Source: Sulfuricurvum sp.
GTDB taxonomy: Bacteria > Campylobacterota > Campylobacteria > Campylobacterales > Sulfurimonadaceae
Assembly: GCF_028712165.1 (NCBI RefSeq)
Contig: NZ_JAQTQR010000021.1
Coordinates: 1-38,407 of the forward strand
Length of the DNA: 38,407 nucleotides
Direction of reading: 5' to 3'
In this document: piece after piece, positions 11,043 through 27,382 of the stretch
Layout of the letters: each line of letters begins with the position of its first letter
Position numbering within the stretch: position 1 is the stretch's first letter
Notes under the pieces: model-generated
Database searches by the model: none
Told to the model about the DNA's origin: nothing
The model's input: only the letters and a program-made list of their open reading frames with translations
Program-made: the position numbers and the translations under genes

Positions 11043-12532
11043 TGCACGCCCATCATTTTTTTGATTTCATCAGGTTTATCGTGGATACCGAAGCGGTCAA
11101 TAATCGTCTGAGTCGCTTCATTATGACCGATCACTTCGACCGTTTTGCCCATATTGCGCAGTTTGATTACCGCTTTATCGAGTGCATACACCGCTGATAT
11201 ATCCCAGAAATGTGCACCGGTTACATCGATCACGATATGTTTCACCTCTTCTTTATAATCAAAGGCATCGGCAAAACGATCAGCTGAGTTAAAGAAAATC
11301 TGCCCGAAAAATTTATAAATTCGGGTATTGCTCGTCTCTTCAAACGATTTTTCCCAATACATCAAATGGCTTATTTTGTTCGCAAAAAAGAGTGAAGCCA
11401 GGAGAACTCCCGTAAAAACACCCAGTGCCAGATTATGGGTTCCTACCACTACAAAAACGGTACTCAGCATGACGATATTGGTTGAAAGAGGGAGCGTTAC
11501 CAGCCCTTTGATCGATGCCCAGTTAAAAGTACCGATCGAAACCATGATCATCACTGCTACCAGTGCCGCCATCGGAATGATTTTGATCAGATCGCTCATA
11601 AAAACGACCATGATCAGAAGCAATACCCCTGCTATCAGGGTTGAGAGACGTCCCCGACCTCCCGATTTGATGTTAATGACGGATTGTCCGATCATCCCGC
11701 ATCCGGCCATTCCGCCGATACATCCCGTAGCGATATTGGCGATCCCCTGCCCTTTGGCCTCACGGTTTTTGTCGCTGTCCGTATCGGTCATATCATCCAC
11801 GATCGTTGCCGTCATAAACGATTCCAAAAGACCTACTGCCGCCAATGCCGCCGAATAAGGAAGAATGATCGATAATGTCTCAAAATTGAACGGAACCTGC
11901 GGCCACAGAAAGAGCGGAAGAGTATCAGGCAATGCTCCCATATCTCCTACCGTATGGACATCGATTCCCATGTAAAAAACAACGAGTGTCAAGACGACAA
12001 TATTCACCAGCGGCGATGGGATCATTTGACCGACTTTTGGTATATACGGAAAAAGATAAATAATCGCAAGCCCTGCCGCCGTCAGTGCATAAACATGCCA
12101 TGTGACATGGGTGAGTTCAGGCAGCTGCGCCATAAAAATCAAAATCGCCAATGCATTTACAAACCCGATCACAACCGTTCGGGAGACAAAACTCATAAGC
12201 GAGCCGAGTTTTAAATACCCTGCCGCCACCTGAAGTACACCCGTCAAAATCGTCGCAGCAAGAAGATACTGCAAGCCGTGATCCCTGACAAGCGTCACCA
12301 TCAGCAGTGCCATCGCACCCGTAGCCGCAGAAATCATCCCCGCACGTCCTCCGACAAAGGCGATTACCGCCGCAATACAAAATGAGGCATAAAGCCCCAC
12401 TTTCGGATCAACCCCGGCGATAATCGAAAAAGCGATCGATTCGGGAATAAGGGCCAGAGCAACGACGATACCGGCGAGAATATCCCCGCGAATATTGCCG
12501 AACCACTCTTGTTTGCTTGACATCAATAACAT
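11039..12532 (-). CDS. SulP-family anion transporter with STAS domain
   Basis: A 497-residue SulP (SLC26) transporter. The membrane part (about residues 1-380) starts with [34 protein letters not shown], here seen as the segments [16 protein letters not shown] and [11 protein letters not shown], and includes [19 protein letters not shown]. The C-terminal STAS domain spans about residues 405-490 ([20 protein letters not shown]). SulP proteins import sulfate, bicarbonate or other anions; the substrate cannot be read from the sequence. AAGGA lies 5 bases before the ATG at 12532. Its 3' end overlaps the displaced tail of the convergent COG4705 gene. It is a different subgroup from the SulP at 25458-27125. 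No linked carbonic anhydrase or sulfate-assimilation gene is present to suggest the substrate. Confidence 0.88.
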
Positions 12533-24317: not shown

Positions 24318-24725
24318 TTATTTGAATGTAACTCCGCTGTATCGATCATATACCCACTCTGCCACAGCTTGACGCTCTTTTTCGGAGAGTTTCCCTTTGA
24401 GCGAAGGCATAATCCCGAATTTTTCGATCGCCATCGGATGACACATACTGTATTGAACACTCGGGTTTTGAATGTAGTCTTTGATAAATGCGACAATTAC
24501 CCGCCGTTTAACATCGTTGTCATCATCAGCGATAATGACATTTTCTTTGAGACGATTTGAAACTTCGACCATAGGAGGAGCTTTGAGAGTGGCTAGATGT
24601 TTCATGACTTCTTGTTTCTCCATCATCTCAACATGGCACTTCATACAGTTTTTTTGATACACACGGTATCCGTCCGCTCCCCATAGTGTATATCCTGCTA
24701 ATACTAATATCCATAATAATTTCAT
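24318..24725 (-). CDS. Small periplasmic monoheme cytochrome c
   Basis: A 135-residue exported cytochrome. The signal peptide is about residues 1-17 (ending LWGA). The haem site is CMKCH (Cys27, Cys30, His31), and a methionine in KFGIMPSLKGKLSEKERQA is placed as in class I cytochromes, where it serves as the sixth ligand. The C-terminal helix is EWVYDRYSG. A DDDND acidic patch near residue 68 is unusual. The ATG overlaps the stop of the FmdE-like gene (ATGA), so the two are translationally coupled. It would act as an electron carrier in the periplasm; its redox partner is unknown. The gene runs convergent with the TolC-type gene, with only four bases between their stops. Confidence 0.85.
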   Translation of the reverse strand: MKLLWILVLAGYTLWGADGYRVYQKNCMKCHVEMMEKQEVMKHLATLKAPPMVEVSNRLKENVIIADDDNDVKRRVIVAFIKDYIQNPSVQYSMCHPMAIEKFGIMPSLKGKLSEKERQAVAEWVYDRYSGVTFK

Positions 24726-25345: not shown

Positions 25346-25375
25346 ATTTTCCCTTCTATGTTTAAAAATTAACAG

Positions 25376-25381
25376 ATTATA
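25376..25381 (-). promoter_or_regulatory. -10 box of the FmdE-like/cytochrome c operon
   Basis: On the minus strand a perfect TATAAT spans 25381-25376, about 30 bases before the ATG. Its predicted start point is 25369. There is no -35 hexamer; instead an FNR/CRP-like palindrome is centred 41.5 bases upstream, the arrangement of class II activated promoters. Confidence 0.55.
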
Positions 25382-25398
25382 AACTCTTAGCAAACCAT

Positions 25399-25427
25399 TT
25401 GACTTGACCGAAATCAAGTGCTACACT
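25399..25427 (+). promoter_or_regulatory. Predicted promoter of the SulP/mini-thioredoxin operon
   Basis: TTGACT (25399-25404) is followed after exactly 17 bases by TACACT (25422-25427). The start codon lies 30 bases further on. The spacer contains an inverted repeat that looks like an FNR/CRP-family site. Confidence 0.55.
25404..25417. promoter_or_regulatory. FNR/CRP-family-like operator between divergent operons
   Basis: TTGAC-CGAA-ATCAA differs in one base from the FNR consensus TTGAT-N4-ATCAA, and it lies inside the perfect 6-base inverted repeat ACTTGA-N6-TCAAGT (25402-25419). It overlaps the -35 end of the rightward promoter and sits at -41.5 relative to the predicted leftward start. 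Binding by a Crp/Fnr regulator would thus activate the cytochrome operon and block the SulP operon. Confidence 0.5.
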
Positions 25428-25457
25428 TTCGCACACGTTATCCAAGGATGATCTCCG

Positions 25458-27125
25458 ATGCTACGCAAGGTTCACGACTCTCTAGAGCCAAAACTTGTTA
25501 CCCTCTTTCGTCGACAAGGCTACTCATGGGCTGATTTCAGTGCCGATGCGATTGCCGGTCTTGCAGTGGCTATCGTTGCACTCCCTCTCGCGATGGCAAT
25601 TGCGATCGCTTCCAATCTACCCCCTGAACGCGGGCTTTTCACCGCTATTGTTGCCGGATTTTTGATCTCGGCACACGGGGGAAGCCGTTATCAGATCGGC
25701 GGGCCAACGGCGGCATTTATTGTGACCGTGGCGACCGTCGCAATGAAACACGGCTATGAAGGACTCGTACTCGCAACCATCATGGCGGGGATGATCTTAA
25801 TGGTGATGGCTTTTGTCCGTGCGGGAGAGATGATCAAATTCATCCCCTATCCCGTTGTTATCGGATTTACTTCCGGGATTGCTCTGCTCATCGCATTTTC
25901 GCAAATCCGCGATTTTTTCGGTCTCTCCATCACAACCGTTCCGCCCGATTTTATCGATAAGCTCACCGTTTATGTCGCCCATCTTCACGAAACCAACTTT
26001 GTTGCGGTCGTCGTTGCACTCGTTTCTATCGGTATCATTCTCCTCTCCAAACGCTATTTTCCGAAAATTCCAGGACCTATCATAGTTGTCACCCTCTCGG
26101 GGCTTGCCGTGTGGGGGCTTAATCTCCCCGTCGATACGATTGAGAGCCGTTTCGGAGCTATCCCTTCTATGCTCCCCACTCCGGTATGGCCTGACATAAC
26201 ATTCGATAAACTGCGCCTTATACTCCCCGATGCTATCACCATTGCAACCCTCGCTGCTATCGAATCGCTCCTCTCTGCTGTTGTTGCCGACGGAATGACC
26301 GGCACACGCCATAAACCCAATGCCGAACTCTTAGGCCAAGGGATCGCTAATATCGCTTCGGGAATATTCGGCGGTCTTCCCGCTACCGGAGCCATTGCCC
26401 GAACCGCAACCAATATCAAAGCGGGTGCGCGTTCTCCGGTAGCGGGGATGATGCATGCCGCATGGTTGTTTCTTTTTATGCTGCTCCTCTCCCCGCTGAT
26501 CGTAAAAGTTCCTTTGGCGGCTTTGGCGGCGATTTTGATGATCGTTGCATGGAATATGTCGGAGATCAAACATGTTCGAGAAATCATGCAGGCACCTCGA
26601 AGCGATCGAATCGTCCTATTTGTGACGTTTCTTTTGACCGTATTGGTCGATCTTAATTTCGCAATCCAAGCCGGAATAGCCCTTGCATCCATACTGTTTA
26701 TCGATCAGATGATGAAATCGACGCACATCCGTGCCGTTGAAAGCGAAGAAGATGATCCCGATTCAATCCATAATAAAAATATTCCGGAAGGTGTGGAGGT
26801 CTATGAGATTGACGGTCCTCTCTTTTTCGGGGTTGCCGAAAAGCTGGTGGATACGTTGCTGCTGTTTGAAAAACCGCCGATCATCTTTATACTTCGCATG
26901 CGTCATGTTCCCCTCATCGATGCTGCCGGACTGCATGCGCTTGAGGTGCTGCATGAACGGCTTCATCACAACAATACCCGCTTAATTCTCTCAGGGGTCA
27001 ATCCGCAGGTACGCCGTTTTATAGGGACATCCCATATCGATGATAAAATAGGGCAGGAAAATATTGTCGATCACATCGACAAAGCCATCAAAATAGCAAA
27101 TGACGTCATTGGAGAAGAAAATTAA
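25458..27125 (+). CDS. SulP-family anion transporter with STAS domain
   Basis: A 555-residue SulP (SLC26) transporter. The membrane part (about residues 1-430) includes SADAIAGLAVAIVALPLAMA, YQIGGPTAAFIVTVATVAMK and GGLPATGAIARTATNIKAGA. The cytoplasmic STAS domain (about 450-545) has EVYEIDGPLFFGVAEKL and VPLIDAAGLHALE. It is of the DauA/YchM-like length and order, unlike the shorter SulP at 11039-12532. SulP proteins import sulfate, bicarbonate or dicarboxylates; the substrate is not readable. AAGGA stands before the ATG. Its TAA shares one base with the ATG of a mini-thioredoxin gene, so the two are made together, and thiol control of transport is conceivable. Confidence 0.88.
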   Translation: MLRKVHDSLEPKLVTLFRRQGYSWADFSADAIAGLAVAIVALPLAMAIAIASNLPPERGLFTAIVAGFLISAHGGSRYQIGGPTAAFIVTVATVAMKHGYEGLVLATIMAGMILMVMAFVRAGEMIKFIPYPVVIGFTSGIALLIAFSQIRDFFGLSITTVPPDFIDKLTVYVAHLHETNFVAVVVALVSIGIILLSKRYFPKIPGPIIVVTLSGLAVWGLNLPVDTIESRFGAIPSMLPTPVWPDITFDKLRLILPDAITIATLAAIESLLSAVVADGMTGTRHKPNAELLGQGIANIASGIFGGLPATGAIARTATNIKAGARSPVAGMMHAAWLFLFMLLLSPLIVKVPLAALAAILMIVAWNMSEIKHVREIMQAPRSDRIVLFVTFLLTVLVDLNFAIQAGIALASILFIDQMMKSTHIRAVESEEDDPDSIHNKNIPEGVEVYEIDGPLFFGVAEKLVDTLLLFEKPPIIFILRMRHVPLIDAAGLHALEVLHERLHHNNTRLILSGVNPQVRRFIGTSHIDDKIGQENIVDHIDKAIKIANDVIGEEN

Positions 27126-27382
27126 TGCAGATTATACTGTTTGGAACAGGGTGTGAGATGTGCCGTGAAATCGCCCACAACATTGAAGCCGCTATCGCAT
27201 CGCTGAACTACGACATAAATTTCGAGAAAACAGCCGATCTGCATCGTATGTTATCGTACGGGATTAAAAGTACCCCTTCCGTCGTTATCAATGAAAAAGT
27301 CGTCTCAATATCAACCTATTTAAGTAGTGATGATGTGTTGGCACTTATTCACGCGAATTGCAGCTCTGAACATCAAAATTAA
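27125..27382 (+). CDS. Mini-thioredoxin (TM0996/MTH895 type) coupled to SulP
   Basis: An 85-residue thioredoxin-fold protein, paralogous to the one in the arsenic operon. The redox pair is Cys10 and Cys13 in GTGCEMCREI, the cis-proline loop is STPSVVINEKVV, and a short polar tail ends the protein. It has no signal peptide, so it is cytoplasmic. Its ATG overlaps the SulP stop by one base. The last 38 bases overlap the 3' end of the convergent GGDEF-EAL gene. Its likely job is thiol exchange with the transporter, with reduced sulfur intermediates, or with another partner; nothing in the sequence decides between these. Confidence 0.85.
   Translation: MQIILFGTGCEMCREIAHNIEAAIASLNYDINFEKTADLHRMLSYGIKSTPSVVINEKVVSISTYLSSDDVLALIHANCSSEHQN

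Follow-up and report, generated by a model that had tools for sequence, protein, structure and literature searches.

In the Campylobacterota, responses to nitrate, NO and N2O are mediated in Wolinella by the regulators NssA, NssB and NssC, and no FNR orthologues are known from this phylum according to the same review (PMC6682613). In Nitrosophilus labii, another member of the phylum, a TTGA-N6-TCAA box is found before nap, nor and nos, with its first base 48-49 bases from the start (PMC11539149). On the protein side, Rodionov and co-workers related Ser or Pro at position 180 together with Glu at position 181 of the regulator to boxes of the form TTGAC-N4-GTCAA (PMC1274295). Single sites of Crp/Fnr proteins acting on two flanks have been described as well: Cmr acts as a repressor at one of its own promoters and as an activator at another and at the divergent rv1676 (PMC5499769), and CRP activates divergent promoters from one target (cited in PMC5499769).

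The window analysed here, a stretch of 38,407 nucleotides from Sulfuricurvum sp., carries such a candidate site between an fmdE-like gene followed by a small cytochrome c gene (cytC) and a divergent sulP gene followed by a mini-thioredoxin gene (Table 1). A first-pass annotation had described the site as an FNR/CRP-like box one base off the FNR consensus, centred 41.5 bases upstream of the predicted fmdE-cytC start and overlapping the sulP promoter, and had proposed that it switches the two operons in opposite directions. All bases on which this geometry depends were found in the sequence, the two transcription starts being predictions. The minus strand before fmdE-cytC reads TTGATTTCGGTCAA-N22-TATAAT, which places the box centre (25410.5) at -41.5, given a start 7 bases past TATAAT. 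On the sulP side, TTGACT and TACACT (25422-25427) are separated by 17 bases, with a TG ahead of the -10; this promoter was also returned by a local promoter scan, whose result for the region was at chance level. Promoters without a -35 are normal in Campylobacterota, and a missing -35 alone is no mark of activator dependence. Since fmdE and cytC overlap by four bases, they should form one operon. Elsewhere in the window, the 3' ends of the mini-thioredoxin gene and a convergent GGDEF/EAL gene overlap (27345-27382), and there is a second, distantly related SulP-family gene (11075-12502; 27% identity).

Table 1 Features of the fmdE-cytC/sulP intergenic region and the flanking genes, with positions in the window.
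Feature	Position	Strand	Remarks
Nss-type Crp/Fnr box TTGACCGAAATCAA	25404..25417	.	Minus-strand reading TTGATTTCGGTCAA; centre 25410.5; predicted from sequence and conservation
fmdE-cytC promoter -10 TATAAT	25376..25381	-	22 bases from box; predicted start near 25369
fmdE ribosome-binding site AGAAGGGA	25350..25357	-	Sequence
fmdE-like gene, 207 aa	24722..25345	-	FmdE-like fold by model and PDB matches
Small cytochrome c gene (cytC), CMKCH	24318..24725	-	Start overlaps fmdE stop
sulP promoter extended -10 TGCTACACT	25419..25427	+	Common to box-less sulP orthologues; predicted start near 25434
sulP promoter -35-like TTGACT	25399..25404	+	Last base common to box
SulP-family transporter gene (Sulfate_transp and STAS)	25458..27125	+	Domain profiles
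Mini-thioredoxin gene (Thioredoxin_3, MTH895/ArsE-like)	27125..27382	+	Domain profiles

The product of fmdE gave no Pfam or NCBIfam match to a curated FmdE profile, and a sequence search of the PDB gave no FmdE family either. Its AlphaFold2 model (pLDDT 92.7) was matched by Foldseek with probability 1.00 to four FmdE-like PDB chains (2gvi, 2glz and 3d00), with TM scores of 0.45-0.48 by query length. The predicted structure supports an FmdE-like fold, and it is as a statement about fold that the FmdE-like label of the first-pass annotation holds.

In order to assess the conservation of the box, we compared 30 fmdE upstream regions, 29 from Sulfuricurvum and one from another genus of the same order (L031), with dinucleotide shuffles of these regions. 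The pattern TTGAYN4RTCAA was present in 20 of them, against a shuffle mean of 0.055, and the remaining 10 lacked the perfect box. An exact N22 from box to TANNNT, which puts the palindrome near -41.5 of the predicted start as in class II promoters, was found in 19 of the 30 loci and in none of the shuffles. Most boxes of the genus have the form TTGAT-N4-RTCAA, and the one base by which ours differs from the E. coli FNR consensus, correctly noted before, is thus the local norm. Among 36 further fmdE loci, nearly all from other genera but including L031 again and two within-genus second copies, 13 carried TTGA-N6-TCAA within 250 bases, several of them with N22. Box and N22 also precede the solitary cytC of genomes G001 and G034. 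It would have spoken against the proposal if close relatives sharing the gene order had lost the palindrome, but G035 and G011 both keep the box. Class II activation of fmdE-cytC, as originally suggested, is thus well supported as a prediction by the conservation of the box and its exact spacing. No Crp/Fnr match was obtained in G039 (82% complete), which nevertheless has an fmdE box at spacing 23, or in G010, which has neither a box-N21-23-TANAMT match nor a box before fmdE (L020).

Some related arrangements were observed along the way. In G001, one box has a class II placement both ways, with N23-TATACT on the side of an ABC exporter and N22-TATAAT on that of the solitary cytC (L205:2232-2302). 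A napA-like gene is the divergent neighbour of fmdE in other genera, and the interval between the two holds one or two boxes (L217, L221, L225 and L229). A 410-residue membrane protein whose gene bears the box in several relatives had no match in the genome studied here.

At the level of the genus, box-N21-23-TANAMT gave 317 matches in 41 genomes, compared to 21 for the reversed pattern, and spacings of 22, 21 and 23 occurred in a ratio of 108:20:20 (148 tallied among the matches listed). In G035, this architecture precedes napA, a cd1 nitrite reductase gene (NirS type), the genes for NnrS and NrdD (anaerobic ribonucleotide reductase), a cytochrome c gene and a tetrapyrrole methylase gene. The other clear site of this form in our genome precedes an operon for a hemerythrin, a DUF2249 protein and a membrane protein; NapA and NirS orthologues were not detected in this genome (99.94% complete) at the thresholds used. 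The box itself, TTGACCGAAATCAA, conforms to the TTGA-N6-TCAA consensus of Nss regulons (PMC11539149). The count of bare TTGAYN4RTCAA boxes in our genome (22 copies, against 3 for the reversed pattern) was dropped as a regulon signal, most sites lying inside ORFs, and box plus spacing plus -10 was used instead: it is the arrangement of the box with a -10 that exceeds chance, and the bare box is not special.

The only Crp/Fnr protein with an HTH in the genome has 222 residues (C60:14676-15341); the other two cNMP-binding matches belong to longer ORFs (745 and 626 residues). The one with 745 residues (G000:C34:2254-4332), in which a SulP-like match occurs together with the cNMP-binding domain, possibly encodes a nucleotide-gated transporter. 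The recognition helix PETLSR is invariant across 29 aligned regulators of the same type, ours included, and is also present in a second Crp/Fnr type found in G035; the genome thus holds a regulator whose helix matches the box by the published rule (PMC1274295). PDB relatives of the regulator include DNR. The cysteine set for the 4Fe-4S cluster of FNR is absent from it, its cysteines being located only at positions 32, 106 and 226 of a 227-residue reading, and there are fewer than three in most relatives of its type. Judged by its sequence, the regulator fits the description of an Nss/DNR-like Crp/Fnr protein better than that of an oxygen-sensing FNR. Because the PETLSR helix is present and the iron-sulphur cysteines of FNR are absent, a nitrogen oxide (NO, nitrate or N2O) appears likelier as its signal than oxygen, which is also what the genes sharing the promoter architecture point to. 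Of the initial designation as an FNR/CRP-like box, the Crp/Fnr type is thereby retained and oxygen-sensing FNR is not. Another Crp/Fnr type, with QPATLSR replacing TPETLSR, is encoded beside nap in G035 (L185:11333-12889), where a PilJ-type protein follows, and in G029 (L186:9120-10672); from its helix, it may read a slightly different box.

On the sulP side, an extended -10 of the form AAG-TGNTANANT lies 30-34 bases before the start codon in 15 of 16 close orthologues, and in the 16th (L076) AAG-TGCTACACT is visible downstream of an earlier chance match. The box is missing from 24 of 27 sulP upstream regions and present only in the three with a divergent fmdE (ours, G035 and G011). These three differ little from TTTGACTTGACCGA up to the sulP start, whereas their fmdE leader and spacer diverge. 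Outside these three, a -35-like TTGACT at this place occurs only in G016, where an OEP gene lies directly upstream of sulP with a similar but broken sequence, TTGACTTGcatctgcgCAAGTGATACACT; either an insertion of the fmdE-cytC cassette between the OEP gene and sulP or its loss from that place in G016 could account for this. Since the box is limited to the three genomes with fmdE-cytC divergent to sulP, its overlap with the sulP promoter is, as far as these comparisons tell, a matter of gene arrangement and recent gene order. Class II spacing towards sulP was not found. The box sits between the sulP -35 and -10, ending one base ahead of the extended -10, and is centred at about -23.5 relative to the predicted start, a position from which repression is sterically plausible.

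From the sequence, the spacing, the conservation and the regulator repertoire, we infer binding, signal and the direction of regulation on both sides as follows. The Nss/DNR-like regulator, which most likely senses a nitrogen-oxide signal (NO, nitrate or N2O), would bind at -41.5 and bring RNA polymerase to the fmdE-cytC promoter, which has a TATAAT but no -35. In our genome and the two relatives, the divergent orientation of fmdE-cytC puts the site just upstream of the sulP extended -10, so that an occupied box would keep polymerase out and reduce transcription of sulP, as an incidental effect of the gene arrangement. We regard this reading, a class II activator site of fmdE-cytC for the single HTH-bearing Crp/Fnr protein with a side effect on sulP, as probable. 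Points against it are the fmdE box of G039, a genome in which no Crp/Fnr match was obtained, the ten fmdE regions without a perfect box, and the lack of NapA and NirS orthologues in our genome, which leaves no evident source of the signal. A palindrome at a coincidental spacing could be invoked because many ORFs of this genome contain the 14-base pattern as well, but position and spacing are kept before fmdE as no shuffle keeps them, which refutes chance for the fmdE side and leaves it a negligible probability overall. A classical oxygen-sensing FNR switch would fit a box one base from the E. coli consensus; given the three scattered cysteines of the regulator, the even fewer in most of its relatives and the review that knows no FNR orthologues in the phylum (PMC6682613), we consider it very improbable.

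Two further readings differ in what they assign to sulP. Selection may have kept the box for two functions at once, activation of fmdE-cytC and repression of sulP-trx in response to one signal. Its place within the sulP promoter, its retention together with the gene order in G035 and G011 and the precedent for dual or divergent regulation from single Crp/Fnr sites (PMC5499769) are in favour of such a two-way switch; the many sulP regions without a box speak against it, and to explain the conservation in the three related genomes no more is needed than the fmdE side and the sulP core, so that we find it possible but rather doubtful. Of the opposite switch proposed in the first-pass annotation, the overlap with the sulP promoter is borne out, whereas repression is suggested by position and, if real, would be limited to the three genomes in which fmdE-cytC is divergent to sulP. 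Alternatively, sulP might not be measurably affected, for example if polymerase at the extended -10 outcompetes the regulator. The box tracks fmdE or cytC and not sulP, and relatives without it also keep the extended -10, but regulator site and polymerase footprint overlap fully and zero interference would be unusual; we can entertain this reading only tentatively.

The preferred reading, activation of fmdE-cytC with a side effect on sulP, links a cytochrome c and an FmdE-like protein that is so far uncharacterised to the nitrogen-oxide regulon of Campylobacterota, through a promoter architecture that is precise and testable. It is also a clear case of how a change in gene order could bring a neighbour under the control of a regulator. 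The neighbours of fmdE-cytC or cytC vary by lineage, with sulP here, an ABC exporter in G001 and napA in other genera. It is conceivable, though somewhat speculative, that the module settled with its own box beside these varied neighbours and, on landing in the sulP promoter, gave rise to a new reciprocal switch.

Compared to the known systems, the predicted fold of the fmdE product is like that of the FmdE-like proteins 2gvi, 2glz and 3d00, with which it shares only 14-16% identity, and its gene is encoded with that of a cytochrome c. E. coli FNR class II promoters are alike in the centre at -41.5 and in the palindrome one base off consensus; unlike E. coli FNR, the regulator here is without the Fe-S cysteine pattern, and the -35-less promoter is ordinary in the phylum. 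The Nss-type systems of Campylobacterota (NssA/B/C, NssR, DNR-like) have the same TTGA-N6-TCAA about 41 bases before the start, in the same phylum, and the nap, NirS and NO-linked genes of relatives share this architecture, although C. jejuni NssR reads TTAAC-N4-GTTAA, unlike the box here. What distinguishes our locus from known Nss targets is the fmdE-cytC operon itself, in a genome that lacks orthologues of NapA and NirS. At M. tuberculosis cmr-rv1676 and at divergent promoters of E. coli CRP, one Crp/Fnr site has effects on both sides; Cmr has opposite effects at two cmr promoters, repression at one and activation at the other, and also activates the divergent gene, whereas the effect on sulP here is a prediction.
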